A stretch of 64,000 bases of DNA from Marine Group III euryarchaeote CG-Bathy1 (GTDB lineage: Archaea > Thermoplasmatota > Poseidoniia > MGIII > CG-Epi1). The DNA is taken from the NCBI GenBank assembly GCA_001875425.1, contig MIYU01000018.1, forward strand, positions 1-64,000. Reading direction: 5' to 3'. Below, piece after piece: positions 12,135 through 63,700 of the stretch (its first letter is position 1; each line of letters begins with the position of its first letter). The notes beneath the pieces were generated by a model. The model was not told the origin of the DNA and did not search any database. It saw only the letters and a list, made by a program, of their open reading frames with translations. Made by a program: the position numbers and the translations under genes.

Positions 12135-15100
12135 TTACTTTCTCAATCTGCGAAGAATGAACATAGACATTACTGAAGCAAAGATTGCTGCGACAACCAG
12201 TTGGGACCAGTTTCTACCAGATTCCTCGACTACGGGAGCGGGTGTTGCAGTAATTGAAAATGTATAATTGTTATTACTTTTATCAGATTCTGTAAATGCG
12301 TTTCCTGGATCTATAGACAATCTGATTTCACTAAATTCAGCTGCTATAGCGATTGTAGTGGAAACTGTACTAAAATTGAAATCATCAAAAGTTGCAGTCT
12401 CGAGTGCGATTGCGGCATCGTTTACATAAAATGCAATTGGAACGTCTAATCTGAGAGAAGTAGACGCGTTATTGAATATCGTAGCAGTGAGTGTTACGTT
12501 TACGAACCCTTCCATATCAATATCAGTCATGTTAACCTGTTCAGGCAACCAAGTAACTTCTGTAATAGAGAAATCGGATATTGGAGGCGGGGAGGCAGTT
12601 ACTCTTAATTCATATTCATAAACACCATGTTCTTGATTTTCAGCAGGAATACCATCCCAAACTATCTCTACTTCTGGGAAGATGAAGGAGCCTGGAGCTA
12701 CTGATAAATCTGGAGTTATTAGAATTTCAACGGCTTCAGTTTGATTAGACATGATGTTAACATGGACTGGATTAATAGTAGAAGACCAGCCAGATTGTGC
12801 TTCATTAGAGAAATAAACATAGATATCATACTCCTCTGAGCTTTCTCCTAAATTCTTCAAATAGAATGTGAAAGAAGCCCCTTCACCAATAAGAGCATAT
12901 GCTTCTAATTCTCCATGAGAAATTTCCAACCCTCTCAATAAAATTGGATCTAAAGATATAGTATTCTGAATAGACCCATCTGCAATAGACAAGTTGATTG
13001 TTTCATCAAGAACGAATATTACGCTTGGAACGTAAGAATGATCTTCTAAGTCTGAAGATATAGTATATTCCCCAGCTGGAAGGATAACGTCTAAAATACC
13101 ATCGGGAGCCAATAAATTTAAGGTGAGTTCTGAGCTTGAAAGCACTATTAGAGATTCACTAAAATTCAGAGGAGTGTTTGTATCTGAATTTAGATATGTG
13201 GCCATGTAATGAATTCCTTGAGATAAGGTGATGTCCACATCATGTGATTGATTTGCAACAATGTTTTCAACAAATACAAAACTATTATCGTTATCACTGA
13301 CGTATGCATATAGTTGCACATTTTGTGGCGATAAAAAGAATTCATAATTTCCTGAACTATCTGGATTAATTGATTGTAAAAGTTTCTCACCTACGTCATC
13401 CCATATTTCGATTGTGGCTTCGGGGAATAGTTCATTTGAATCAGGTATAGCATCGAAATCTCTGTCGTAGAAAAGAGCCCCCCCTATTCTAATTTTCCAA
13501 TCAGCCTCTAATGTAAATTGTTGATTGGATACACCTACTTCTATTTTGAAATTATCATTTAGAGTGTATTTTTGTCCTTCTTTGATATAATCGATATCGA
13601 CGTAATATCGGGCAGGAATTATGTCCTCGAAAGTTGGTAAAGAACCGAATGAATCTGTAAATCCTGTGTAAGTGAAATCCATATAACTATTAGACAAAAC
13701 AACTTCGACATCTGATAAAGGATGTGTAACTCCTTCAGAATCTATGTATGTGAAGGAAATGGATGCTGAAACTCTGTCTGGAATTAAGCGTATATCGAAT
13801 TTACAACCACCATCAGAATAACAATTATCTTCTGAAACGACTAATTCGGATTCGTAAAACTCGTAACCATCTACTTCTAGAGAGACTGTGTAAGTGCCTT
13901 TTGGAATTCCGAAATCATTGTAATCACCTCTAGTTGAAAGAACCATAGTTCCATCAACAGAAGATAGGAATACTTCTACGTCATTATCAAAATCTAAAGA
14001 AAGGCCTGTTGGCTTGGAACGAATTCCTCCGTAAAGGAAAAATTCTTCTTCGAGAATTAAATTGTGCTCTTGAGGATTTTCTATATACATTGTATTCAAG
14101 TATGAATGATGACTGTGAGCGGGTGAGAAAGTAACATAATACATACCTGGCGGCACGTATCCTGAATACCCTTGACCTACAGAACCTATATTGTGAAATG
14201 TGAAAACCGTATCTAAAGAGGATTTACTTCTAAATTCTACATCTCCGACAACTGGGTTTCTAAACTCAGAGGTCTTCCATGCATTACCGTAAATTTGAAC
14301 TAATGTTTCTGTAGTTATAGATCCTAAATCAAAAGTGTCTGTATTCAGATCTATTGTTAAATCGCCCTCTGCACTATATCTAACCCCTTCACCTAAATCT
14401 AAAATTGCTTCATAGGTATAACTATCTGGGAGTATTTCTCCCCCTATCCAACCGTTTGAATCTGTGAATAAAGAGATTGTATTTGAAATTGGATCTGTAA
14501 CCGATGAGAATTTGACTTCCATCCCCTCTAATGGTTGATTATCTCCAATAAATTGCCCTGAGATGTAAGTTGGTATACGGCCAATAAAAACTTCTAGATT
14601 ACTGTTTGGAGTTGTGAATGTGACTGGATCTAGAACCTGATATCCATACTTATCCACTCCAACTGAATAAGACCCGTAAGGTAAAACGAAGTTGAAACCT
14701 TCTCCATCTTCCATATCAGACCATACGGAAACTTTACCATTCTCATTTTCGAATGTGAAAAGACCGGAAGATGGTGGATTGAAAGAGGATAGCTTTTCGA
14801 AAGTTAGGAAATTGAATGATGAAGCAGGATAAAATGGTAAATCGAAATGGTTTTCTGAATTGGTTAAATCATCACCATAAGTAACAGTGATTGTATCTAA
14901 AAGAGCGAATATTTCTTGGGTTTCTGAACCACTATAAACTGAATAAACGTAATATGAATCTGGAGGTAAATATAGACTATAGCGGCCATTACCATCAGAG
15001 TACGCTGTAGTAACGGACTTGGTTGATACTGATTCGAAAAGAAGTACATCTATTACAGTATCTTCACTTGTATCTGAAAGAGATTCATCTGTAGATGAAG

Positions 15101-18100
15101 TAGAATCTAACACCCCGTTACCATTAGAATCTAGATATACATAACCTTCGACAAATACAGCTGATTTTAAATTTATAAAGACGGGAGAATCGTATGTATG
15201 CATATCTACCATCTCTAAGTGAGACCAAACTACATCACCTTCAATGGCTGCGTGTCCGTGACCACTATGATCTATAGTAGAACCGTCTAACGTATCAGAA
15301 GATAATGTGGCCTTTAGATAATATTGCTGTGGAATGACTATATCTGTAAAATAACCGTTAACATCAGTCTTTAACTGAATAATAGAACTACCGTCTACGG
15401 CGTGTAATGCCACGGATGCATCACCTTCAGGTACGCCAGCTAGAAGGACAGAGCCTTCTATTCTTTTACCATGAGAAATTGTTATATTTTCGGGTTCGAA
15501 ATTGTTAGTTAATTGAATATCTAAAGTGTTGTTAATCCAATCAGTAGCCATGTCTTCTGAAAGTAAGCGTAAAGTGTAATTGCCAGGCAATAGGTGATCG
15601 AATTGATAAAGAGAATCGAAATCTGAAACTGTGGTTAAATCATTAGTGTGATCGAGTAAGGAGAAGGTGGCTGATTTTTGTTCGGTTTGCGAATCGAAAG
15701 TAATGGCCCCGAAAATATCTAATGGAGCCCAAGCACCGTCAACGGAATCTAAAGATTGGCCTGCTTTTATGGCAGATTGACCTCTATATGATTGAATGAT
15801 CATTTCATGATTTTGATGATATCCTGTTAAGACATATTCACCTGGAGCTATATTAGAAAAAGAATAATTTCCATTCTCATCAGATAAGACAGAACTTGTT
15901 TCTTCAGTGAAAAGATTCTCTAAAACAACTGTAACATTAGATAAAGATTCATCTTGTTCATCATAAGAAAAATCGGAATTTTCATCCCAGTAAATTTTAC
16001 CAGAAATGCTAGAAGAATCTAAAATAATATCTTTTTCTATAGTCCAGTCACCTTGTCTAGTAGCTTCTGCCTCAGTAATAGAAAGAATAACGTCATCTGA
16101 AAGAATAGTGTTAGAAACTTTGAGAGCTTTTTCCTGTTTGGTATTTGGTTCTCCGAGTGAAACAACTAAATTGATTTCGCCTGCAGGTACGAGAATCGAA
16201 TAGTCGCCTTGACTATCGGTTTGAACTGTAGCGTGTGGTATTCTATATTCATCAAATGCAGTAATTCTTGCACCGGCAATAGGTTCACCTGAAGATGTTT
16301 TAATTGAGCCAGTCACATTAGCACCTTCATAATATTTTAAAATACGAAGACCAGAATTAGATTCCACTAGCTTAAAGTGTGTTAGATTCCATCCTGGAGC
16401 TATTCCGCTGTAACCAGAGATGCTAGGGAACCAACTGTAAGCTTCATTTGCTAAATCTCCCATAACTGCAGGTATACCATCGTCTGCTGAACCGCCGACA
16501 TCTAAACCAGACCAACCAATGAAAGCTCTGTAAAACATTGAATTCAAGAATTTATCTTTGTAAACTAGAGATTCGGAATTAGGTGGAATTTGGAATGAAG
16601 GATCTGCCATAATCCTCTCTTCTACTTCTGGAATTGTTAATCTCTCGCCATCTGGCATATCTATAACGACTTCGATATAATCACTAACATTGTAATCTGC
16701 TAAAGTTATTGGAGCATACAGGATACCGGTATTTTGATAGCTGAATGGCATCATACGACGATCGGCTGCAAAATAACGTATAGAATTACCCGTTTCTTCT
16801 TCAACCTTCCAAAGAACTTCATTAATTTTATCGATAGAGAGACTCATTAGTATCGGTGTGGCTGCTCTTATTGCAGCATTTTCTTTATTGATGTCTTCAT
16901 TTTCAGGAATATACTCTTTGGGATTTGAAATAATGTGTTCTAAAGATGAAATATCAGAATCGGAATAATATGATTGTAAAACTTGTTTTGTACCAATAGA
17001 CATAGATTCAGTGCCGTGTCTATCAACTTCTGCTTCAAGTAACCTGTATAACATTAATGATAAGGCTTCTTTTTCAGATTGTGCGGCGAGGAAATTACCG
17101 GCGATTTGATAACCAAACTGGAAATTATCTGCTACTGTAGGATGTTCAGCAATATCTATTGACCAGAAACCGTAATCCCACCATGCAAGAAAAGCCGGCC
17201 TTTCAGTCGGATCAGTATATGCATCTTGTTCGGAAAGCCATTCTAAACCTTCAATCCAATAATCGGATGGGAAAGAGGCCCCTGTAGTTCCTAAATACCA
17301 TAAATCGTTTGTTGTTTTATTATACATACCAGAAACTCCTTCTGGATATTTACTGTAGTTAACACCACCAGATTGGTAATGATCTGAATCATATTCCCAT
17401 TCATCGGGCCTTAGGAAATCTAATGTTAATAAATCATAAACGCCTACGTCGTGTTCTTTTTTAGTTTCATATGGTATTGCAGCATCATAACCATGGAATG
17501 CATTTGGAAGAATTAAAAATGCAGTTATCATGAAAGCCATAAAAGGTTGTTTCAAGTGGAAGGCTTTTCTGAGACCTCCTAAACGATCGCGGAATTTGAG
17601 TTGGGAATTCCAAGATTCTCGGCCCCAATAGATTCGTAAAGTTTTCAGTGTGTGATCGAAATTAGACCAAGTCACAATAGATGCAGTAATCCATCCAGAA
17701 AGAATAACCATTATTGGTGTTGCATTGAATATAAAACGTACAGCTGATTGAGCCATGAAGATTGAAACTGCTGCCCACGTTATTAGGAAAAAGTGATCTT
17801 TCTTCCAGCTTTTATCGTTAAATAATTTCCAAGATAACCAGAAGAGACCGAAAATGGCTAGCCAGGCTGTAACAATACCAAAAGAGAAGATAAAGTTAGA
17901 AAATGAAGGCGGTTGAGCCTCAGCGATTGTATCGGAAAGATTTGTTCTAATGAAATAACCTTGACCACCTAAGAGTAAGAAACCTAATTCAGTAAATACA
18001 TATTGAAGTAATAAGAAACCGACCAAACCTGCAGTTATGGTTGAAGACCAAACCAATAACCAAGGTAAATCTCGTGTCGGAACAAAAATTAAAGAAGCAC

Positions 18101-19097
18101 CTAAAACACCTAGTAAAATATATGCTGGAGCTTCCCACCAAGTGCTAAGAGAACCCATAGTGTAATAATAGGGAAATGAAAGGATAATTGGTACAGAAAG
18201 TGCAATAATACCGACCATAGCAACCGAGAAACTATCTACCTTTTTTACCGAATTAATTAACATTTGAAGAACTAGATAGATAGCTACGATCGCCATAAGA
18301 TATGGGAACCCCTTCCAAGATAATGCAACAATCAAAAGAGATGTCCCGGCCAACCCTGCATAACCTATCGATAATAGTTCATTTGAAAAGAAAGATGAAA
18401 ATCCTTCTTTAATAGAATCGATATCTTTCCAATTAGAAACCCAACGTTTATCTTCAGAAGAAGATAGTGACTTCATAAAGAAATAGAAACAAATCGTAGT
18501 AAGTAAGATAATGAACGAATCGTGATCAGCTAGAGCTAACGTTGAATGCCCTATATGGCTCGCACTAACTGAGATGAAAAAGGCTGAGAAAAGAGCAGCT
18601 TTGGAGCCGAAATAAGTCCTGCCCATTGCATAGATGGGGAAAACCAATAGAGCACCATATACTGCAGGCATAATCTCAGTAGCCCACCAAATAGCATCAG
18701 CCTGATTACCGACAATTGGGGAAATTAATAATCCTGCGATTACGATTGACCAGTCGAATAAAGGAGGTCTAACATTGTTCGCCCCTAGAGGGTAATTTAA
18801 CATCGGATCGCTGATAAGATGTTTACCTGTTTCGTGAACATAATCTATAACGTGTTTATGATAATACGGATCACTACCTCCAGTAAGTTGAAAGCCATCC
18901 TCGGTTGCTGGTTCTAAATTCCAAGCAGTTCTAAGATACAGCGCGAAAAGAAAAATAGCAATTACAATAGCGACCTTAGACCAATTTATTTGACTGAAAG
19001 ATTGTGTTTGTTTTACAGAAGTGGAGACTGGAGTCTGCTGTGAAGCAAACGGAGTGCTAATACGCTTCTGTTTTTGTCTCCTTCTAGATCTAGCCAT
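12135..19097 (-). CDS. aglB: Oligosaccharyltransferase AglB/STT3 fused to a 1,400-residue extracellular repeat tail
   Basis: 2320-residue membrane protein. Residues about 40-550 hold the multispan STT3 core with first acidic motif GGSDPYYHKH (73-82) and second motif ALADHDSF (188-195). The periplasmic-side domain contains the hallmark WWDYGFW (about 640) and a DK/MI-like DRRMMPFS. It transfers the lipid-linked glycan to Asn in sequons outside the cell. Ordinary AglB proteins end near 900-1000 residues. Here, from about 930 (NVTGSIKTSSGEPIAGARI), there follow many carboxypeptidase-regulatory/Cna-B/SdrD-like beta modules (GKIYWDENSDFSYDEQDESL, DENGNYSFSNIAPGEYVLTG, VYLDSNGNGVLDS) and CARDB-like modules. 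The protein ends in a second membrane anchor and RRLRK. TATA box at 19149-19158. Confidence 0.9.
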   Translation of the reverse strand: MARSRRRQKQKRISTPFASQQTPVSTSVKQTQSFSQINWSKVAIVIAIFLFALYLRTAWNLEPATEDGFQLTGGSDPYYHKHVIDYVHETGKHLISDPMLNYPLGANNVRPPLFDWSIVIAGLLISPIVGNQADAIWWATEIMPAVYGALLVFPIYAMGRTYFGSKAALFSAFFISVSASHIGHSTLALADHDSFIILLTTICFYFFMKSLSSSEDKRWVSNWKDIDSIKEGFSSFFSNELLSIGYAGLAGTSLLIVALSWKGFPYLMAIVAIYLVLQMLINSVKKVDSFSVAMVGIIALSVPIILSFPYYYTMGSLSTWWEAPAYILLGVLGASLIFVPTRDLPWLLVWSSTITAGLVGFLLLQYVFTELGFLLLGGQGYFIRTNLSDTIAEAQPPSFSNFIFSFGIVTAWLAIFGLFWLSWKLFNDKSWKKDHFFLITWAAVSIFMAQSAVRFIFNATPIMVILSGWITASIVTWSNFDHTLKTLRIYWGRESWNSQLKFRDRLGGLRKAFHLKQPFMAFMITAFLILPNAFHGYDAAIPYETKKEHDVGVYDLLTLDFLRPDEWEYDSDHYQSGGVNYSKYPEGVSGMYNKTTNDLWYLGTTGASFPSDYWIEGLEWLSEQDAYTDPTERPAFLAWWDYGFWSIDIAEHPTVADNFQFGYQIAGNFLAAQSEKEALSLMLYRLLEAEVDRHGTESMSIGTKQVLQSYYSDSDISSLEHIISNPKEYIPENEDINKENAAIRAATPILMSLSIDKINEVLWKVEEETGNSIRYFAADRRMMPFSYQNTGILYAPITLADYNVSDYIEVVIDMPDGERLTIPEVEERIMADPSFQIPPNSESLVYKDKFLNSMFYRAFIGWSGLDVGGSADDGIPAVMGDLANEAYSWFPSISGYSGIAPGWNLTHFKLVESNSGLRILKYYEGANVTGSIKTSSGEPIAGARITAFDEYRIPHATVQTDSQGDYSILVPAGEINLVVSLGEPNTKQEKALKVSNTILSDDVILSITEAEATRQGDWTIEKDIILDSSSISGKIYWDENSDFSYDEQDESLSNVTVVLENLFTEETSSVLSDENGNYSFSNIAPGEYVLTGYHQNHEMIIQSYRGQSAIKAGQSLDSVDGAWAPLDIFGAITFDSQTEQKSATFSLLDHTNDLTTVSDFDSLYQFDHLLPGNYTLRLLSEDMATDWINNTLDIQLTNNFEPENITISHGKRIEGSVLLAGVPEGDASVALHAVDGSSIIQLKTDVNGYFTDIVIPQQYYLKATLSSDTLDGSTIDHSGHGHAAIEGDVVWSHLEMVDMHTYDSPVFINLKSAVFVEGYVYLDSNGNGVLDSTSSTDESLSDTSEDTVIDVLLFESVSTKSVTTAYSDGNGRYSLYLPPDSYYVYSVYSGSETQEIFALLDTITVTYGDDLTNSENHFDLPFYPASSFNFLTFEKLSSFNPPSSGLFTFENENGKVSVWSDMEDGEGFNFVLPYGSYSVGVDKYGYQVLDPVTFTTPNSNLEVFIGRIPTYISGQFIGDNQPLEGMEVKFSSVTDPISNTISLFTDSNGWIGGEILPDSYTYEAILDLGEGVRYSAEGDLTIDLNTDTFDLGSITTETLVQIYGNAWKTSEFRNPVVGDVEFRSKSSLDTVFTFHNIGSVGQGYSGYVPPGMYYVTFSPAHSHHSYLNTMYIENPQEHNLILEEEFFLYGGIRSKPTGLSLDFDNDVEVFLSSVDGTMVLSTRGDYNDFGIPKGTYTVSLEVDGYEFYESELVVSEDNCYSDGGCKFDIRLIPDRVSASISFTYIDSEGVTHPLSDVEVVLSNSYMDFTYTGFTDSFGSLPTFEDIIPARYYVDIDYIKEGQKYTLNDNFKIEVGVSNQQFTLEADWKIRIGGALFYDRDFDAIPDSNELFPEATIEIWDDVGEKLLQSINPDSSGNYEFFLSPQNVQLYAYVSDNDNSFVFVENIVANQSHDVDITLSQGIHYMATYLNSDTNTPLNFSESLIVLSSSELTLNLLAPDGILDVILPAGEYTISSDLEDHSYVPSVIFVLDETINLSIADGSIQNTISLDPILLRGLEISHGELEAYALIGEGASFTFYLKNLGESSEEYDIYVYFSNEAQSGWSSTINPVHVNIMSNQTEAVEILITPDLSVAPGSFIFPEVEIVWDGIPAENQEHGVYEYELRVTASPPPISDFSITEVTWLPEQVNMTDIDMEGFVNVTLTATIFNNASTSLRLDVPIAFYVNDAAIALETATFDDFNFSTVSTTIAIAAEFSEIRLSIDPGNAFTESDKSNNNYTFSITATPAPVVEESGRNWSQLVVAAIFASVMSMFILRRLRK

Positions 19098-19165: not shown

Positions 19166-20443
19166 TCACTCGTCAGATGGCGTAATTTGACCGGAAACTG
19201 CACCGAATCCTACACGATAACTATCGTTCTGACACCACCCAGTTATAGAAATAGAATCGTAATCATCTAAGAACGTTCTTTTTTCATTGTTTGATAAATT
19301 GATTGGTTTAGTGCCGTTCCAAGAAAGTTCAAGAAGACTGCCATAACTATCAGAAGAGGGACCACTGATAGTTCCTGACGCTAGTAAATCTCCTGTTCTA
19401 AGATTACAACCATTAACAGTATGATGAGCTAATTGTTGTGTCATACTCCAATAAAGATGTTTAAAGTTGGTATTACAGATAACATCCGTATTATCTGAAT
19501 TGGCTGTTTGTAATGATACTTCTAGATTTATGTCGTAGCTGTTTTTACCAGATGTATTAAGATAGGGTAATGGTTTGGGATCTTGTTTTGGCCCTGAACA
19601 GCGAAATGGTTCTAGTGCTTCGAGAGTGATGACCCAAGGGGAGATAGATGTAGCAAAACTCTTTCCAAGGAAGGGGCCTAATGGTTGATACTCCCATTTC
19701 TGAATATCGCGTGCACTCCAATCATTTACCAAAACTAGGCCGAAAATATGATTTTCTGCTTCTTGAGTTGAAATTGTGTTACCGAGAGTATTGCCTGGGC
19801 CGACTAAAGCACCCATTTCGAGTTCAAAATCAAGTCTGTTTGAGGAACCAAAAGATGGAGTGGAATCTTTAGTCAGCATTTGCCCACTGGGTCTTTTGAT
19901 ATCTGTTCCTGAAACAACTATAGAAGAAGAGCGACCGTGATATGCTACTGGTAAATGAAGCCAATTTGGCATTAGTGCATTTTCTTCACCTCTAAACATC
20001 TTACCTACATTAGTTGCGTGCTCTTTTGATGAATAAAAATCAGTATAATCTCCAACATCGACGGGTAAAACCATTTCGACATCTGAAATATGAAATAAGA
20101 CGTCTCCTCTAATTTTAGAATCTCTAAGCTCTGAATTATCCTCTGAAAAAAGATTACTTAATATTAATCTGGTTTCTTTCCAAGATGCCCTTCCAAGGCT
20201 CATAAAAGCATTTAATGTTGGTTCATCGAAAACGAGTGTATCTTGTAAATTTGAATTTGAGAAAAATCCATTGGAATCTAAAATGGATAAATCAATTACA
20301 AAGTCTCCAATTATGGTACAAACGTGTAAATCGCCACCACTTATTGGACGAAAAACACCGAAAGGTAGATTTTGAATTGGAAAATGAGAATCTGAATTAA
20401 CTTCGATCCAAGATTTCAAATCGGGGTTGTGAGTTTCATCCAT
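19166..20443 (-). CDS. fahA: Fumarylacetoacetase
   Basis: Last enzyme of tyrosine breakdown: hydrolyses fumarylacetoacetate to fumarate and acetoacetate. 425 residues, the full family length, with an N-terminal SH3-like domain (LPFGVFRPISGGDLHVCTIIGD) and the FAH catalytic domain. Metal and active-site regions seen are DFYSSKEHATNVGKMFRG, LPVAYHGRSSSIVVSG, LDFELEMGALVGPGN and LVNDWSARDIQKWEYQPLGP. It is the last gene of a minus-strand cluster HPPD, HGD, unknown, FAH, separated from the unknown gene by one base, which points to a single operon. Confidence 0.94.
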   Translation of the reverse strand: MDETHNPDLKSWIEVNSDSHFPIQNLPFGVFRPISGGDLHVCTIIGDFVIDLSILDSNGFFSNSNLQDTLVFDEPTLNAFMSLGRASWKETRLILSNLFSEDNSELRDSKIRGDVLFHISDVEMVLPVDVGDYTDFYSSKEHATNVGKMFRGEENALMPNWLHLPVAYHGRSSSIVVSGTDIKRPSGQMLTKDSTPSFGSSNRLDFELEMGALVGPGNTLGNTISTQEAENHIFGLVLVNDWSARDIQKWEYQPLGPFLGKSFATSISPWVITLEALEPFRCSGPKQDPKPLPYLNTSGKNSYDINLEVSLQTANSDNTDVICNTNFKHLYWSMTQQLAHHTVNGCNLRTGDLLASGTISGPSSDSYGSLLELSWNGTKPINLSNNEKRTFLDDYDSISITGWCQNDSYRVGFGAVSGQITPSDE

Positions 20444-20444
20444 A

Positions 20445-21365
20445 TTACATCCATCCTAAGTCTTTGAGGTCGTCCCTTGGTTCATTGAATGAACAACTAC
20501 CATAAGAGAGCAACGCCTCCTCTCTTAAATCAACTATCGCATTTACTGGTAAACTATTGTTTTTCCAAGAAAAAGAGGTGTTTTTGAATGCGAAATTATG
20601 AGGATTTTCATCTTCCAATGCTTCGATTAAATTAGTTTCATCTATTATGCCTGTATAAAATAAAAGAGCTGAGCCGAAAACGTTGACAAACCCATGCATT
20701 TTAGTGCCGATTTCTTCATCAAAATGACGGATTGGGTGGTGGAGCCCTGCAGTAAATTTTAGTTTTACATTATTTTTTTTACAGAATGATAACGCTGAAG
20801 CTATTGTTTTAGAAGAGGGGAAAGCCTCTGGAACAATGCCCCCACATCTTAATTTAAGTTGTATATTTTTAATATTTGATGTGGAAATTTGATTAGAGAT
20901 AGTTGAAAAATCTGTAATTATAGGCTCTAAGAAAATTTCGACAGAGTTATCAAGAGATTTGATTGAAGTACTCAAAATGTTTAAAATGTCGTTTAAATTG
21001 TTATTTTGAGTATCTATTTTAGCTTCTAAAGACTTGATTTTACAAACATCACCATATTGATCTTCAAAGGTTTTAATGGTACTTAATTCCTCGTGAAATT
21101 TATTTATATATGTATCGTCTTGAAAATTGCCAGTAAGTAAGACTGAAAGATGGAGAGGCTTTTCAGCTGTAAAATCGGATAAATGAGGTAATAAATTATT
21201 CAATTTTGAGATTGGGCAAATAAAACGATTTAATATCCATGAATCGGAAGAAGAAAAATATAATTTATAATTAGAAATTGCATCGTCAAAGGGCAGTTCA
21301 GAGGGAGGGAACAGACCTGCATAGTCAATTAGAGATTCCATGAAGGAATGAAGGCTATTATTCAT
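20445..21365 (-). CDS. Conserved-looking protein of unknown function in the tyrosine-degradation operon
   Basis: 306 residues, soluble, no signal peptide. Recognisable stretches are ESLIDYAGLFPPSELPFDDA at the N-terminus, LKLRCGGIVPEAFPSSKTIA and KLKFTAGLHHPIRHFDEE in the second half, and NEPRDDLKDLGWM at the end. The alternating beta/alpha pattern with a basic/acidic C-terminal segment suggests a TIM-barrel-like enzyme, but I cannot name the family. It sits tightly between homogentisate dioxygenase and fumarylacetoacetase, exactly where many clusters carry maleylacetoacetate isomerase, which is absent here. A role in that isomerisation or in pathway control is inference from position only. 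It has no glutathione-transferase-like MaiA sequence (no SSCS-type motif). Confidence 0.8.
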   Translation of the reverse strand: MNNSLHSFMESLIDYAGLFPPSELPFDDAISNYKLYFSSSDSWILNRFICPISKLNNLLPHLSDFTAEKPLHLSVLLTGNFQDDTYINKFHEELSTIKTFEDQYGDVCKIKSLEAKIDTQNNNLNDILNILSTSIKSLDNSVEIFLEPIITDFSTISNQISTSNIKNIQLKLRCGGIVPEAFPSSKTIASALSFCKKNNVKLKFTAGLHHPIRHFDEEIGTKMHGFVNVFGSALLFYTGIIDETNLIEALEDENPHNFAFKNTSFSWKNNSLPVNAIVDLREEALLSYGSCSFNEPRDDLKDLGWM

Positions 21366-21374
21366 TCTATTCAG

Positions 21375-22559
21375 CTACTCACCCAGTGAATCGCTATATT
21401 CATCTCCGGCCAACCACGAAGAACCGTAATTTTCATCCTCTATGACTAAAGAATTCTTAGCGACTAATAATGGATAATAGGTATCCACCATAACTGCCAA
21501 TTCATCTGTCCATTTCTGACCAATAGATGCTTCATATTTACCAGGATGAGGGCCATGTGTTAAACCGTCAGGATGTAAAGTTAGGGATCCGAATTCTACG
21601 CCCTTTCGGGACATAAATTCATCCTTAGCATAATAAATTACCTCATCAGACATGACGTTTGAATGATTATAGGGGGCTGGTATCGAATTTTCATCGAAAT
21701 CGAATGGACGAGGGCAGAACGAACAAACAACAAAATTCAGTCCTTGAAAAGTTTGGTGAACAGGAGGTGGTTCGTGTATACGGCCAACTATTGGTTCGAA
21801 ATCATTTATATTGAAAGCATATGGATAGTAATATCCATCCCAACCAACTACGTCACAAGGATGGTGTCCTAAGGTTACTTCAGTAAGGAGGTCTCTTTGT
21901 TTGACTAATACTTTGTATTCTCCTTTTTCATCATATGTTTTTAATTCCTCAGGAGCTCTGAAATCACGCTCTGAATATGGACTTCGTTCGATTAATTGAC
22001 CATATTCATTTCGATATCTTTTCGGAGTATTAATCTCTCCCGACCCCTCTATAATCAACAGTGAATGTAATTCTGATTTCATATTATATTTGTGTAGAAT
22101 TCCTCTAGGTATGATCAAGTAGTCTCCTTGACCGTAATTTATATCGCCGTATGCCGTTTCCAAAACGCCATTTCCTTTACCAACATAAACAACTTCATCT
22201 GCTTGTGCATTTCTATAATAAAAATCATCATTTTTGTCTGGATGAGATGTGGAAATAATAACATCTTTGTTGAATAAGAGTGGCGTACGGTCGGTTACTG
22301 GACTTCCACCTTTTGGTAATCTTTCAGTGTAGAAATGGCGCATTCTCAGCGCTGCATCTGGATCTTCTTCTAAAGTAAAAGTATCGATTACTTTAGTAGA
22401 TACTACTTCTGTTGGAGGGTGTACATGATATAGGAGAGCTGAAGGGCCGTCGAAACCTTTGTTTCCCTTTAATTCTTCATGATATATGTTTCCTTCTTTA
22501 CTTCTAAAAACGGTATGCCGTTTTCGTGGTATTTTACCTAGTTTGTGATATCTGTGCAT
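21375..22559 (-). CDS. hmgA: Homogentisate 1,2-dioxygenase
   Basis: Opens the ring of homogentisate to maleylacetoacetate using Fe(II) and oxygen. 394 residues, the shorter prokaryotic form. Cupin-type features include DYLIIPRGILHKYNM, the conserved GHHPCDVVGWDGYYYPYAFN block, GRIHEPPPVHQTFQG with iron-ligand histidines, and SLTLHPDGLTHGPHPG near the C-terminus. Its ATG overlaps the HPPD stop by one base (TAATG), so the two are translationally coupled. With neighbours it completes most of the tyrosine to fumarate route. Confidence 0.94.
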   Translation of the reverse strand: MHRYHKLGKIPRKRHTVFRSKEGNIYHEELKGNKGFDGPSALLYHVHPPTEVVSTKVIDTFTLEEDPDAALRMRHFYTERLPKGGSPVTDRTPLLFNKDVIISTSHPDKNDDFYYRNAQADEVVYVGKGNGVLETAYGDINYGQGDYLIIPRGILHKYNMKSELHSLLIIEGSGEINTPKRYRNEYGQLIERSPYSERDFRAPEELKTYDEKGEYKVLVKQRDLLTEVTLGHHPCDVVGWDGYYYPYAFNINDFEPIVGRIHEPPPVHQTFQGLNFVVCSFCPRPFDFDENSIPAPYNHSNVMSDEVIYYAKDEFMSRKGVEFGSLTLHPDGLTHGPHPGKYEASIGQKWTDELAVMVDTYYPLLVAKNSLVIEDENYGSSWLAGDEYSDSLGE

Positions 22560-23647
22560 TATAGATTTCCTCTCTCTGATTGGTGCCTTTCTATAGCTTC
22601 GAAAAGTGCTTTGAAATTTCCGAAACCGAACCCCCTACTTCCTTTTCTTTGAATTATTTCGTAAAAAAGAGTTGGTCTGTCTTGAACCGGTTTTGTAAAT
22701 AGTTGAAGAAGATACCCTTCATCATCTCTATCTACTAAAATTCTTAATTTTTTTAATGTATCAAAATCTTCATCTATTTCACCAACTCTATTTAGGAGAT
22801 TGTCATAATACGTGTCGGGAACTTCTAAAAATTCAACCCCGTTCGCCCTTAATTTAGTGATAGCTCCAATAATATTATCAGTCAAAAGAGCCATGTGTTG
22901 AACTCCGGGGCCGTTATAGAAATCTAAATATTCTTCGATTTGTGATTTTTTCTTCCCTTCTGCTGGTTCATTTAATGGAAATTTAATTCTACCCCTACCA
23001 CCTTCCATTACTTTAGACATAAGAGCTGAATATTCTGTAGAGATGTCATCATCGGTAAAGTGCTGCATCTGTGTAAAACCTAAAACATTGGCATAATAAT
23101 CTGCCCAAACATTCATTTTGCCTAGTTCGACATTGCCGACAATGTGATCTACAAATCTCAAACCGACTGGTTCTTCTTCGATAATATCAGCTCTGTATCC
23201 TGGAAGAAAGGGGCCTGAATAATTAGAAGTAGAAATGAAAGAATGGATAGTATCGCCATATGTACGAATTGAAGCATACCTTATTGTTCCGTGTTCATCA
23301 GAAATATCTTTTGGCTCAGTGACGGATTGAGCACCTCGTGCAACCGTATCGTTGAAGCAAGAATCTACATCATCGACGTGAAAGGAGATATCTTTTGCTC
23401 CATCACCATGATTCTTAAGATGATTATTCATTTCATCATTACCATTAAGAGGTGATGAAAGAACCAACCTTATCTGTCCTTGTTGTAAAACGTATGAGGC
23501 TTTTTCTCTAGTACCTGTTTCTAATCCAGAATAAGCAATTTGTGAATAGCCGTATGCTTTACGGTAATAGTAAGCTGCCTGTTTAGCATTACCTACCCAC
23601 AGCTCAACGTGGTGTATATTCTTCAAAGGAAGGGGGTCATCACTCAT
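22559..23647 (-). CDS. hppD: 4-Hydroxyphenylpyruvate dioxygenase
   Basis: Converts 4-hydroxyphenylpyruvate (from tyrosine transamination) to homogentisate, iron- and oxygen-dependent. 362 residues with two vicinal-oxygen-chelate modules: NIHHVELWVGNAKQAAYYYR at the start and FVDHIVGNVELGKM midway. Metal ligands are His in DHIVGNV, His in GVQHMALLTDNI and Glu in FYEIIQRKGS; the C-terminal GFGFGNFKALFEAIERHQ helix that gates the active site is intact. First gene of the tyrosine operon. An AT-rich TATA-like ttaatatt about 30 nt upstream (minus strand) may be the operon promoter, close to leaderless. Confidence 0.95.
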   Translation of the reverse strand: MSDDPLPLKNIHHVELWVGNAKQAAYYYRKAYGYSQIAYSGLETGTREKASYVLQQGQIRLVLSSPLNGNDEMNNHLKNHGDGAKDISFHVDDVDSCFNDTVARGAQSVTEPKDISDEHGTIRYASIRTYGDTIHSFISTSNYSGPFLPGYRADIIEEEPVGLRFVDHIVGNVELGKMNVWADYYANVLGFTQMQHFTDDDISTEYSALMSKVMEGGRGRIKFPLNEPAEGKKKSQIEEYLDFYNGPGVQHMALLTDNIIGAITKLRANGVEFLEVPDTYYDNLLNRVGEIDEDFDTLKKLRILVDRDDEGYLLQLFTKPVQDRPTLFYEIIQRKGSRGFGFGNFKALFEAIERHQSERGNL

Positions 23648-54743: not shown

Positions 54744-57700
54744 TTACTCTTCGTCTCGAGTGTTGATTCTAGCAACACCGAAAGCACTGACAAATCCTGA
54801 GATAATCAGACCTAGCATTCCGATAGCGAACGATGGTGTTGCCATCTTGGCTGCTAGAACAGTTACCTGTCCTGAACCGGAATTGTCACCCCTCTCATCG
54901 AAGAACTCATCATTCATTACATGACCTGCAGCAATGTCCTGAGATTCAAGTACAGGATTGATTACAGCGTACATAGTGATGTCCGCATAATCTCTGGTTG
55001 AACCTGCTGGCATTGTTACTTCGAGCCAGTTGAAGCTAGCCTGATAAGTCATTCCTGAAACTGAGTAAGGTTCCATTCTGTCGATACTTGTTTCGCCTAC
55101 TCTGGTAGTTCTGACCACACCAACACCTGGAATATCACGAGCATCTCCGTCTGGATCAGCTACATAGAAAGTAACCAATACATCGGAAGCGTAGTTTCCG
55201 TGATTAACTGCGTTAGCTGTTATCATTAGAGAGTGTGGTTCGTGACCGAAGGAATCTTCGGAGTGTTTGTGACCGACACCTGCATCGATTACCTGCCATC
55301 TGTTGAATTCTAGGTCTCCCACGATTTCAAACTGTGATGGTGGTATGTAGAACGAAGCTATGTCCGGTTCCGGTAGATCCTGTCCTAGAGCGACTTGGAA
55401 TGCATTAGCATGCAGAGATACTTCGCGACCACCGGCTGGTTCGCCAGTGTCCCAGTCGTATGCTGGAGCCGTTATTTCGAAGTTAGCTGTAGCCATGAAG
55501 ATACCTGACTGATCGCCAATTGGTTGCAAGTTGTATGGCAACCAAGGAGCAGTACAGCCCAAATATGGTGGTGAAACACAGTTGTAGTATTCTGCTGCGT
55601 AACTACCATCCCAAATTCCGTCGTCAGTTCCATCAAAGTCACGTGGCCATAGACATGCTTCCCATGGGAATCCGAAAATCATAGCGAAAGTACCACAATC
55701 GACACCGTTCACCATGTTTGCCCATGCAGAGATACCCCATCCAGAAGTATCGTAGTCAGGGTCACCTGAAACCAATTCTGGGTTGATGAATACTTGATCT
55801 GGATATACACCAGTGTTAGCACTGAAGTACTCTACACTCTGTGTTTCGCCAGGCAAGATTTCATACCTTCTCTGGTCGAAGTCTACCTTCTCGATAAAGA
55901 TACCATATTCTCTGACATTGACTATTTCAATACCACCGATACCAACAGTACCTGAACTACCTTCTACTCTAATTCCAAAGGAGTAGAAATTCTGATACTT
56001 CATACCGCCGAACTCTAAGTTGACCTCGTTTTCATTGTATACTGGATCACTATCCAAGTGTACGTAGACCGGAGTCCAACCACACTTTCCTGCTCCTGCA
56101 GTATAGAATGCATCCATACCAGTCCAATCGTTCTCAACTGTACAGACATCGCCGTATGAAGAGCCTGTCAATGCATCACCTAGTTGACCGTGGTCATCAC
56201 CAGCGCGCATATCGAAACCGTTCATTTCAGTTAGACCGATAGAAGTTGTACCACCAAATAATGTGTTTATGTGGTGAGCCCAGACAGATATTTCTGTATC
56301 CACTGAAACATCAGTATGTAGCCAGAATACAAGATATGAGTCTTCACTCCATAGTGGAACGAATGGTGTTCTCAATTCCTCAGCTTCACCGTTTAGATCC
56401 AAGTAGTTGTACGATTGACCGAATTGGTTCATACAACCAGAATATGTGAAGTCATTCATTGGTCCACAGCCTGTTTCCCAAGCGGAGCTCATAGACATTT
56501 CTGTGTTACAAGTCTGGTCGAAGTTTGGATCTAGTGGTGATAGACAGCCTCCTTGACCGTAATCATACCAGACACCGAAACCTGCATTCATACCTACTAG
56601 AAGCATGTGACTCCATGATTTCTTACCGAATGCATCAGCGAATTGTTCGCCGTTACTATCGAGTAATCTTACACCTATTGTGTACATACCTGGAGTATTC
56701 AATGCATCTGTTTGGAATTGCATTAGACCTGTGTTAAGACCGAAGGCCAAATCAGAAATTGTTTGTGTACTAGACCAAACTGCTTCGCCTCTATCTGTAT
56801 CAATATATGCTTCGACAGTTAGTGCTTCAATTTCGTCACCTATGTCTCCCTCACCAACGTTAGCGAAGGCCGCTGAGATGGTTGCGGATGAACCGACACC
56901 TGCTCTGTATGACATATAGCTATCGACCATTTCTACTGCAGCTCCTCTAGTCAACATCTTAATGTTGTCTATGAACCACCAGTTGTAGTAGTAGAGTCCA
57001 TAGTTCATGTATCTCTCGTATCCTGGGTCGTCGGCATTGTCTCCACCGAACATAAAGGATATGAGTACTTCCTGACCAACATAGTTATTGATTGTAGATT
57101 CTGAGTAATACCAATCATCATTGTCGTAATAACCAGTACCTAGACCTGCGAATGCGTTGGTACCATATGGTAATGGATTGTCGCCACTACCGTCAACAGT
57201 TCCACTGTATCCGTGACCAGCTGTTATAGATAATCTCTCCCATGTATCTCCACCATCGGTACTTATCTCAATAACTCCACCACCGTCACCGGCTGCGAAA
57301 TTGTATTGATGTTCGAAAGTTAAGATAGCGTGGGTCGCACCGGTTAAGTCCATTGGTGCTGAAACTAATCTTACATTATCTGCGCCTGCTCCGTCATCAG
57401 TTAAGAACCAAGACATATCTCCATCACTGGATCTGTATGAGCTAGGTTCGAAAGCTGCTTCTCCTGAAACAGTCTCTGAAGTCCAACCTGTGTTGTAAGT
57501 CATTACTGTTGTTGAAGCTTCAACTACATCTGTAAGGTCGTAAGTGCCTTCCCAGTAACCCCAATAATCGGAACAGAAGGTAACATCATAGGTGCCTCCA
57601 ACGACGTTGAAGTAAACCTCTTGAAGTGTACCAGATGGGAAAGTGCCTGAAGCGACTACGTTACCGGACGAGTCAACAACTTCGACTCCACCAACGAAAC

Positions 57701-60700
57701 CGTAGTAGTTCCAACCATCACCATAACTGTCCATCAATTTAGCTACATATTGGCCTGCGTCCAGTTGAACGTCCTCGAAGGTTCGGCCCCAGTAGTAGTA
57801 GCCCGCCGAAGGTGGACCCCAGCTACAAGATATAGCGTTTCCAAAGTTACTATCTGTTGGATAAGTGAATCCGTGTGGACCACCAATCTGAGAGACGGCG
57901 TTAGCGCCCTGAGAGAATGTCGATTCGCTCTCTTCTTCAGCACCATTCATGGTGTGTACGAAGTAAGAATCGAAAGTCGTATCTGCTCTACTATCGGAAA
58001 GATAGTCATCACAGTCAGCAGCGTCTACTAGACAAGCTTCTGTTCTAGCTATCCAATCACCTGGCATTACAGTCCATGCGTTACTGAATGTTGCTTCTTC
58101 TGCTCTTGCCAAGTCAGGAACGTCCAAACTTATTGGATAACCTGGACTTGCTACAAGTGATGTTGCTACGACTGCGAAGTCGTCAATCATCCACTGAACA
58201 TTGTCACTAACCCAAACGTATTGATCGATACCAGCATAGAATCTGATATGAACAGTCTGACCGAGATAATCACTTAGATCGAAGGTATCTTCAATCCAGA
58301 GACCACCACAGCTGTCGCCACAGTCACCGCTCTGGTGAATGAAAGCATCCGTATCACAAACATTTGGATCTGAACTACCTTGGTAAGCGCCGTTACATTG
58401 ACCGTCGTAGCCACGAACTGGTTCTAATGGAACCCAGTTTGGTGCCTGTGCTACAGTCACTATATCGTAGGAAGCCTCGTAAGGTGCATAATTGTCACCG
58501 CAGAGTCTGAGATCTATTTCTCCACTACCTGAGTAACTGAATGCAGTTTCCATGTAACCGCCGTTGGCACTTGGGAATGATGCTGAAACGATTTCTGCTC
58601 CAGTAGCACTGTCGTAAACAGTTACACTACCTACAGTTGAACCGCCCCACATTGTGTCATCCCAACCATCGCCGTAACTATCCCACATCTTTAGGAGATA
58701 ATCACTTTCGGCTGCAGGTATACCATAATCCATTGAACAGCCAGCGGCTGCACTTGGAACTCCGCGCTGTACACCACCAAATAAGGACACAGGTCCTGCA
58801 CTTGGATCGTCAGTGGTCACTTGTACTTGACCGCCTGCGTATGCGTAAGCGTTGTTGTATGCTCCATTGTACCATGAGAACTGATACTTGTGGTGTATGT
58901 TCATCTTAGGTGATGACATATCAGTCAGTTCGAATGTTCCTGCATTTAGAATATGAGTGCCTGGACCGAATCCGCTACTGCCACCAGCAGATGGACCCCA
59001 TCCAGAAAGAACACTGCCATCATCATCTCTACCTGGATAAGTCCAGCCGTTACCTGCGTTATTAACGTCCCAGCCTTCCCATCCTGTGGTATCGTATTTG
59101 ACGTTCTCATCTACTGTACCTAATGTAAGAGATGCATCAATGTTTGAACCTGATTGATCCATTAAACCGTGGTTTCTTACTGTAGATACGAAGTTCGAAG
59201 TTTCACCAACTAGATATCTTTCAGTATCTGCGTCAATACCTGCCCTCATGTTATTATCATGAGCAGAGTAATCGATAGATATATCATCGAGTAGATAGTA
59301 CTCAGCAAGACGTGGACCTGGACCCCATTGGTTAGTGAATCTCAATTGAGATTCTTCGCCACCAACGAAATCTGAAAGATCCATTGAGACCTGTACATAA
59401 CCATCAGAGCCACACCAACCTATTCCACATGAACCTGATTCACCGACTAGATCCCAAGTTAGACCTCCATCGGTTGTTATCTCAACAAGTGTTGGATTCA
59501 TCTGATTTAGATAAGTTGTGCCGTATGCGTAGTAGCTCTCCCTGTAGGTCAAGGTTGCTTCATAAGCTACATCCAGATTGAAAACTGGAGAAATAACCCA
59601 TGGGAAACCGTGTCCCTGGAATGGTGTATCTTGGCCTTCACCGTGAGCGTTTGCGTGAGTTCCGAAATTGATACAATCCGTACCACTGTATGCGAAACCA
59701 GCACAGCTGAAATCGTTCTGAAGATCTGGATTAGATCTGTATTCCTGAGATCCTAAATCCCAGTCATCTTTACCAGAGTAATCAAAGTTGTAGAACGTAT
59801 CATGTGAAGGTCCTACTGTGTGATAAGAGACTGCGAAGTTGTTGCTTGGATCTTCATCATCAGCTGAATTGCCGTAAATTGCGGTTGCCTTGAAGTAGAA
59901 ATCATCTCCTTCTGCAAGACCGTGGTCTGTTGGCAAGAATGCCGGTAGAGTAAATCCACCCATTCCTCCTTGACCAGATATAGTTCCTGCATTGGAGCTC
60001 AACGTAACAAATGGATCGTCCAATACTTCCTGAGAAATAATTACGTTGTCTAATCTGTACCAACCATTGAAGTCAGCGTCCTGTAAAGCACTCCAACCGA
60101 GTGTCCATTTCATTTGTACTGTAGTACCCGCGTAGGATGTTAAGTCAATTGAAACTGATTCGTATTCGCCTTCAGAAGCGCCTGCATCATTTGGTCCTGG
60201 GCCTGTCCAACCAGCTGCACCAGCGATTGGGCTGTCTGAAATAACTCCAGGATAGCCTCCATCTGGGGCAATTGATGACCAAGTCTCTCCACCATCGTTT
60301 GTTATTTCTAAGTATGCACCATCGTATGTCTCATAGAATTGATATGAGTGATCGAAGGTCATAATTACTTCACCTACTGCATCAGATAAATCTGCTGCTG
60401 GTGACATCAAATAACTTTGTGAAGGTGGTGCTAGACCATATTCTGCTGTGAATGCTCCACCATAGGAACATCCGTCACATTCTATTGAACCTCTCTGTCC
60501 ACCGTCTCCATAGCTGTCACGAATGACCATGCCGTGAGAACCGGCTGGAAGGTCACTTATGTCGTGTGTATTGATATCATAACCACTCTGGAAAGTCTGG
60601 AAACCTGAGAAGTAATAACTACCATCTTCTAAGAGAATATTGTAGCTACCTTCACCATACCAGTAATCCACTTCAGCAGTCAATGTTAGACCTGGAGCAG

Positions 60701-63700
60701 TTCCTGCATAGGTGAATTCGAATGTTCTTTCGTTTGCACCCATTGCATTACATGATGGAATTCCATAGTTGTAATTCGACCAGCAATAATCTAGAACCTC
60801 TCCATCAGATACTGCATATGCACCGATTTCATATTCTACGACTTTGAGTTCCTCGTTTGAGTAATCGCTGTCGCTGAAGTAACCTGTAGATACGAGTACA
60901 CGACTGTCGCTAACTGAAATTGCTCCAGTTACTGAGTGAGCTGCGTCTCCGCCGCTACCACCCCATTCGTGCATTAGACTCCAATCTTCACCGGAATCTG
61001 ATCCTATAGCCATTCTGAATAAGTCACAACTGCCACTGACTCCGTTGTCATCACAAGCGTCATCACCGTATGAAACAGATGAAGTGTATGCTTCTGCTGA
61101 GTAGAGGTAACCATTGTGCGCATCTATAGCTGTAGCACCCCATGTATCACAAGTACCGCACGCGTACGAGTACTCGTGGTAATCTGAATCGATTTCATCA
61201 GTGTAATAGTATCCACTTGCATCTCTGTTGTATGATCGTACTACTACGTAGTCATCATCAGCCATTGAAGCGTGTACATTACCAGCGTCATCCACGACTA
61301 AGTCGCCGAAGGATGTCATAGTAGTTCCAGTAGTATCTGCATTTACGCCGAGTCCTGCAATGTCATCGATAACAGATGTGCCATCGTGTTGTAGGATTTG
61401 GTGTATTGCATTATTACCGCTGTCACCGACGAAAGCTTCTGTGTGGCCTTCATCATATGCATAGTTGATTACGAAGTGTGTTCCGTCATCTACTGAAGTT
61501 CTTGGCATGGTAATATCACACCAAAGCATGTAGAAACCTTCTGAAGCGTTAGATATTCTGAACCAGACCGCACTGTCGTAGTAGTCGATAGTTCCATCGC
61601 CATCTGCGTCAGTTGGGACAGGGTCTCCTAATTCTAAGTATCCCCAGTCGCCGTGATCTTCAATCTTGAACATCCAATCATATCCGTAACTACCCTGGGC
61701 TGAGGTGTAAGCAGATGCCCAAGTTCCACCGTCGCCGCTGTCATCTCTAAAGTGCATGACATAGTCGCCCTGTTGTAGAACTGTGTAGTAGTAATACGAG
61801 TAGAAATCTGCAGAACCATCACCGTTACAATCGAAGTTTCCGTATGGATTGTGTGTGAACCCGTATCTGTATTGTGAGTCGTCCATTGCTGAGATTCCAT
61901 AAGAATCTAATGAACTACCTAGCCAATCATAATTTCCTTGATCTGTAGAACCAGTCAAGTCTGCATTGTAGTAATGCGTAACTTCACTGTAAGTACTGCC
62001 ATCAGAAGTTAGAGTTGTGACGTGGCACATCTCATCTGCATCGTGTTGATAGTGTGAACCTTCTGCTTCATCACCAGTACCACCGTATGTGGTTGTGGTA
62101 GCAGATACGTCCATTAATCCACCAATCGCGAAACTGGTTGGTTGACTCATTTCACTTCCGGAAGTCCATCTGTATAATGTTTCACCAACATAGTCGACTG
62201 CCCAGGTGTAACCGCAGCCTTCAGCTATTCTGGTGTTACCATCGAATAGATTTCCTGAAACATATGTGTCTTTCAAACCTGAATCCATTATAGTTCCACC
62301 CCATCCTGGACCAGCTGCCCAGTGATCGAATTCACCTACGACTGTATCGTGTGACCAGTCATCTGTGCTTGAAACTAATTCAAAGGCTGAGAAAGTACCT
62401 TCATTACCATACCAATCGCTGTCGAATCTCATTGTAACAGGCGGCAAGGTGTCAGCCGCAACTGAGAAATCAACATAACATTCTGAAGACCAACCGGAGT
62501 TCCATGGTGTATCACCACAGCCGGATGCCATTTCATTTCCAGCGCCATCTAGAACGGTTATGGTGTGTCCACCGTCACCGTATGCATCTTCTGCAAGAGC
62601 TCTGAAATCGCCTGGTATTGCTGTTGCTACTGTATGATCAATGGTCAAACATACTTCGTACCACCAGCTATCTCCTGAAGCGGTAACCTCAACAGGTGTT
62701 GCTGTGCTACCGTCAATAGTGAAAGTAAATGATGCTTCTGAACTATAGTCGTAAGGACCGATGTGACCCAATGAATTGCCGTTTGCGTCTGTTGCATCGA
62801 CAGTTCCACCGCCGTCACCGTATGCATCAGTAACAGTTACGAGATACATACCCATTTCAGTATAAGATTCTGAAACGCCGTAGTATATGTCATAATTGTA
62901 TGAACACTGACTGTATCCTGGACCATAATAACCGCCCTTGTAAACCTGAGTTGTTACAGAGTCTGAAGGTAATTCTAGAGTTACTGAGCTGCAAGAAGCC
63001 ATATCCCAATAACAGTCGAATGTTCCATCAGAAGATCCGTATGAACCAGATTCTGGACCAGCAATTAAAGAAGTGTCTGCGTCCATAGGCTCATTCAAAG
63101 CATCTTCGAAAACAGTGTTGTGGAATGTCCCTTCGAGAACTACATTCTCCTCATCGTTCAATCCCATGTTCTTTATTACTCCACCAAATTGAGAATCGAA
63201 ATTTTCTGGAATTTCTGCGCCGCCTATTAGAGTCTGGTCCATGACCAAGTCATGTAGAGCCCATGAAGGTGGTGCGAACATAACAGCGAAATCGCCTCCA
63301 GCTAAGTCGCCGTTACAAGAAGAGCCACAGTTGACTGTTCTGTAATCTAGACCGTTTGAACCGTCACCTTGTGAAAGGCCGATTACTGGGTCATCTTGAC
63401 GAATTGTGCTGCTAGAAGTAGCACCAGCACCCCAGTCAGAATACATGGCAACTATAGTTCCATCTGCAAATAATGCAGCTGAGAATGTAAAGTCCCCATA
63501 CATTTGGCAAGCCGAATATCCGTACATACATTTATCAGTCCACTGTACGAAATATCCATCACCGTGATCTGGGTGAGATGTTTCTGTGTGGTCAATGTAC
63601 GTACCATACGACAAACTACCATCATTATTCGAGTAATAATACCAATCATCGTGCGCTACATCCATCTTCGGAGTTCCTGAATTGGAAGTCGAAGGAGATG

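Follow-up and report, generated by a model that had tools for sequence, protein, structure and literature searches.

We propose that an unnamed protein of the Marine Group III euryarchaeote CG-Bathy1, here called X, is likely to be a maleylacetoacetate isomerase that works without glutathione and fills the position of MaiA between homogentisate 1,2-dioxygenase (HGD) and fumarylacetoacetase (FAH); the reaction is inferred, and there are no activity data. In such a pathway, HGD would open homogentisate to maleylacetoacetate, the cis isomer, X would turn this into the trans isomer fumarylacetoacetate, and FAH would split the latter into fumarate and acetoacetate. The isomerase role of X is well supported by its genomic context, while the mechanism is conjecture.

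X is the third of four consecutive minus-strand genes, in the order HPPD-HGD-X-FAH (HPPD, 4-hydroxyphenylpyruvate dioxygenase), within the window, that is, the whole stretch of 64,000 nucleotides analysed here (Table 1). The initial annotation had delimited the open reading frame of X, which proved exact, and had described the same gene order with tight spacing; indeed, HPPD and HGD overlap by 1 base, and the gaps are 9 bases between HGD and X and 1 base between X and FAH. HPPD and FAH score above the NCBI equivalog cut-offs, and HGD was found by the Pfam model HgmA_N. Against TIGR01015, the HGD of the window reaches 60 bits, far under the cut-off of 510.75, and we therefore assign it to a divergent short HGD branch; the plasmid-borne HGDs that adjoin X are similarly short (384–401 aa) and resemble it. 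X itself gave zero matches at E ≤ 1 against Pfam and NCBIfam (GST domains, TIGR01262 and DeoC included) and a single chance-level match (E 0.72) against PDB sequences, and no search of these three collections, whether with a single sequence or with a profile, placed it in a family. Two giant minus-strand open reading frames were also seen in the window, one at 12135–19097 (2320 aa, with a membrane part and then a long tail of repeat-like domains) and the other at 54744–63896 (3050 aa).

Table 1. Coordinates of the X operon, of conserved motifs within X, and of a flavin-reductase-domain protein found near FAH elsewhere (positions refer to the window unless a locus is given).
Feature	Position	Strand	Remarks
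X, unnamed conserved family, predicted (beta/alpha)8 barrel	20445..21365	-	ORF, 306 aa, ATG start
FAH, full-length two-domain type	19166..20443	-	TIGR01266 587.6 bits, cut-off 375.3
HGD, divergent short branch, 394 aa	21375..22559	-	HgmA_N 39.1 bits, cut-off 20.2
HPPD	22559..23647	-	TIGR01263 460.6 bits, cut-off 277
X strand 6, KxRxGG motif, residues 171-176	20838..20855	-	K171 and R173 invariant
X strand 7, KxTAGLHH, residues 203-210	20736..20759	-	K203, T205, G207, L208 and H209 invariant
X strand 8 end, G289-S290-C291-S292	20490..20501	-	C291 in 70/71 relatives and 11/11 of the A1 set
PF01613 protein near FAH	L118:6722-7540; L128:6889-7746; L130:9313-10161		directly beside FAH in two

The operon arrangement is not a product of chance, since the same layout recurs across phyla and in sampled genomes. 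We searched 106 X loci with the proteins of the window; the loci had been selected for similarity to the query, a choice biased towards close architectures. FAH was present in 98 of them, in every case downstream of X and in the same orientation (98/98), and in 96 of the 98 it lay at most 350 bp away. Six of the eight loci without FAH end at a contig edge, leaving L094 and L102 as true exceptions, where FAH is lacking within the stretch. The cluster frequently includes HGD and HPPD too, HGD being nearby in fewer loci than FAH. The constancy of FAH bears on the alternative that X is a cis-specific maleylacetoacetate hydrolase, giving maleate and acetoacetate directly. This had already been raised in the initial annotation, which left the choice between a thiol-independent isomerase and a lyase/hydrolase, and such an activity has been reported for some Bacillus (Crawford, 1976, as cited in PMC4457819). 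A cis-hydrolase would, however, render FAH superfluous, and FAH adjoins X in practically every locus; moreover, X is predicted to fold as a barrel and has no match to a hydrolase family. We regard a hydrolase as very unlikely and, because full-length FAH practically always accompanies X, favour the isomerase, for which there is support from context and no biochemical proof.

Phylogenetic profiles pointed in the same direction. Among 248 Bacteroidota genomes, FAH occurred in 91 and X in 36, and all 36 X genomes contained FAH (Fisher p 1e-18). Among 297 Actinomycetota genomes, FAH occurred in 41 and X in 19, with FAH in 18 of the 19 (Fisher p 1e-16); the sole X without FAH is a gene fragment lying where a contig ends. 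Across 60 archaeal relatives, the two genes go together in a single family, where 17 of 17 X genomes have FAH (p 5e-14), and neither gene was present in 40 archaeal sister-family genomes. None of these p-values is corrected for genome relatedness. X and FAH are adjacent in 23/36 of the sampled Bacteroidota genomes with both genes and in 17/18 of the Actinomycetota, and they still co-occur in the remainder. Distances in the X and FAH trees are correlated as well (Mantel r 0.78, permutation maximum 0.19), a correlation for which shared host descent accounts in part. The initial annotation had proposed this profile, expecting X together with HGD and FAH in genomes that lack MaiA, and had named a family common in genomes without homogentisate genes as grounds for refutation. 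The profile came out as expected, with X occurring alongside FAH and without MaiA across phyla, and we saw the reverse of the refuting outcome. X thus fulfils the genomic criterion for its proposed functional class, co-occurrence with HGD and FAH in the absence of MaiA.

As to MaiA, its reported absence from the window holds for the entire assembly (1.04 Mb, a 79% complete MAG), in which the MaiA model TIGR01262 found nothing even at E ≤ 10. With the same model, no hit above the cut-off was obtained in 50 X genomes from across phyla, in 25 X-bearing Bacteroidota or in further X genomes (Actinomycetota, archaea and others), about 130 X genomes in all; in a positive control, it scored above the cut-off in 1 of 14 well-known genomes. 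The initial annotation had also named a MaiA gene at another place in the same genome as grounds for refutation; none was encountered in the window's own assembly, nor above the cut-off in the other X genomes. A missing MaiA is by itself weak evidence, and it is the specific linkage between X and FAH that carries the case.

MaiA (GSTZ1, the zeta-class glutathione transferase described by TIGR01262) performs the same reaction as we propose for X and occupies a similar operon position, with HGD and FAH and beside a CoA-transferase. This correspondence is seen most directly on plasmids, where a Streptomyces operon reads HGD-X-FAH-CoA-transferase, an Acinetobacter operon FAH-maiA-CoA-transferase and a Sphingobium operon HPPD-HGD-FAH-maiA, such that a shared operon frame carries X in Gram-positives and maiA in Pseudomonadota. 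It could still be argued that X, instead of being a cis-trans isomerase, assists FAH or HGD as a keto-enol tautomerase, as a partner in channelling or repair, or by regulating FAH, given that its linkage is tightest to FAH, which acts after the isomerase step, and that some FAH genomes are devoid of X. Two Bacteroidota loci are much alike around FAH, yet X is found in one (L135) and not in the other (L121), a difference that possibly reflects a recent loss of X. Nevertheless, X replaces maiA in otherwise similar operons, no X genome tested has MaiA, and X has many invariant polar residues at the ends of its barrel strands, as is typical of an enzyme active site. An accessory function is thus unlikely in our judgement, and the isomerase remains the preferred reading.

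We predicted structures of X with AlphaFold for the window protein (alignment of 71 relatives) and for a Paenibacillus member (57 relatives), and obtained mean pLDDT values of 95.1 and 96.1, respectively. The order of elements in the model corresponds to eight beta-alpha units, i.e., a (beta/alpha)8 barrel, with strands at residues 13–15, 45–51, 71–80, 108–117, 143–148, 168–173, 202–205 and 285–290. Residues D14, Y15, G17, P20, P21, L24, E114, K171, R173, G175, G176, P183, K203, T205, G207, L208, H209, G225, G289 and P296 are invariant (71/71), and C291 and E147 are nearly so (70/71 each). The conserved residues are placed at strands 1, 4, 5, 6, 7 and 8 or shortly after them, and in barrel enzymes it is at strand ends that active sites are located. 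By contrast, MaiA has a glutathione transferase fold, and the two sequences are unrelated.

At E ≤ 1e-3, the model of the window protein matched nothing in Foldseek searches of the PDB; deoxyribose-phosphate aldolase (DERA, or DeoC) and other class I (Schiff-base) aldolases dominated the top matches of the Paenibacillus model (E 8e-5 to 1e-3). These are the nearest solved folds to the bacterial X model, with marginal Foldseek scores and a TM of 0.42–0.52 to DERA by query length. The functional lysines of DERA are K167 on strand 6 and K201 on strand 7, and X resembles it in carrying K171 and K203 on the same two strands, covalent chemistry in X being an inference. The two proteins differ in that they share about 10% identity, belong to different pathways and show no significant profile match (hhalign probability for X against DeoC below 1%). 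Since the profiles show no significant similarity, we take the likeness of X to class I aldolases as resemblance and not as membership, and X as a DeoC homologue was rejected on the hhalign result and the lack of a Pfam DeoC match. A search of a viral structure library with X returned nothing relevant.

How X might act without glutathione can be outlined only tentatively. The C4 ketone of maleylacetoacetate is in conjugation with the cis double bond C2=C3. We envisage that X would supply its own chemistry, with Lys171 or Lys203 forming a Schiff base with the C4 ketone and thereby activating C2=C3, whereupon a nucleophile (Cys291, a histidine or water) would add reversibly at C2, and bond rotation followed by elimination would yield the trans product. 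Cys291 is the obvious candidate for the nucleophile, in which case the thiol would have been placed inside the protein. An absolute need for Cys291 is argued against by the homologue at L101, which carries Ala at this position; alternatives would be a purely dienamine route that needs no nucleophile, or one with His209 as a base. The Schiff-base/addition scheme is thus a possibility that we do not hold with confidence.

Several hosts of X make bacillithiol or mycothiol, which raises the question of whether X might use another low-molecular-weight thiol (bacillithiol, mycothiol or coenzyme A) in the way that MaiA uses glutathione. A precedent exists in the gentisate pathway, where the mycothiol-dependent maleylpyruvate isomerase MDMPI, a protein of the DinB fold, isomerises a closely similar substrate from cis to trans without glutathione (PMC6498646). 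However, the hosts of X span phyla with different thiols, X has its own conserved cysteine, and neither the DinB nor the GST families resemble it, no MDMPI_N/DinB Pfam domain being present in 11 diverse X members. We give dependence on such a thiol hardly any credence and retain an isomerase that needs none.

A collection with one genome per species yielded at least 565 stretches with relatives of X, and the best 80 of these loci span 20 named phyla, both bacterial and archaeal; database records label the proteins “hypothetical protein”, beside fahA. In the archaeal family to which the window belongs, 16 of 20 sampled genomes have X. Plasmid-borne copies occur in Priestia, Streptomyces, Rhodococcus, Pseudonocardia, Nonomuraea, Tsukamurella and the cyanobacterium Kovacikia. 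A further copy, on a contig labelled as a MAG of the cyanobacterium Moorena (L027), is near-identical in the tree to a Priestia plasmid copy; this contig is probably misbinned, and the cyanobacterial occurrence therefore rests on Kovacikia. Within related genera of one archaeal family (L002–L019), X is 31–42% identical to the X of the window (L001), and the FAH proteins of the same loci are much closer to the FAH of the window; X clearly evolves faster than FAH here. The X tree splits eight archaeal rows, with the single-clade alternative not rejected by the AU test (p 0.36), and we thus do not claim a horizontal swap of X inside the archaeal family with FAH staying in place.

An activity of the kind predicted for X may have been seen before. 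In 1985, Hagedorn and Chapman reportedly detected a glutathione-independent maleylacetoacetate isomerase activity in Gram-positive extracts, with no gene attached. The Gram-positive hosts of X include Priestia, Paenibacillus, Rhodococcus and Streptomyces, and we treat the connection as a lead, not a test. In Bacillus anthracis, no maleylacetoacetate isomerase gene could be identified (PMC4457819), and two papers on the Bacillus cereus group describe hppD-fah-hmgA with no isomerase gene recognised there. We found no paper naming the X gene in the open-access literature; since subscription journals were outside the scope of our search, prior publication cannot be excluded. The reaction is already known, and it is the X family and its assignment that appear to be new. 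Whether X founds a new family of Schiff-base or cysteine (beta/alpha)8-barrel cis-trans isomerases, with a class I aldolase-like fold and no need for a small thiol, completing tyrosine breakdown in many phyla, archaea among them, is in our view evenly balanced.

Many FAH-bearing genomes have neither X nor MaiA (55/91 in Bacteroidota and 23/41 in Actinomycetota), so the absence of MaiA alone does not require X, and X is one solution and not the sole one. A divergent X hidden in these genomes was considered and rejected, a relaxed search of the 55 Bacteroidota having found none. In Nocardia farcinica (L140:3793-6167), HGD and FAH overlap with no gene between them, and tblastn found no X elsewhere in the 2.66-Mb record. 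Near FAH in 3 of 14 inspected Bacteroidota loci without X or MaiA, we noted a flavin-reductase-domain protein (PF01613, 273–286 aa; Table 1), which may likewise substitute for the isomerase. Genomes free of both X and MaiA may thus rely on other enzymes or on non-enzymatic isomerisation.

Many bacteria and archaea that degrade tyrosine and phenylalanine have no identified gene for converting maleylacetoacetate into fumarylacetoacetate, and X is a concrete and widely conserved candidate for the missing isomerase. If the assignment is true, the gap could be tested with one protein and one spectrophotometric assay, the pathway annotation of many genomes would be corrected, and X would represent a second invention of maleylacetoacetate isomerisation, one that does without glutathione.
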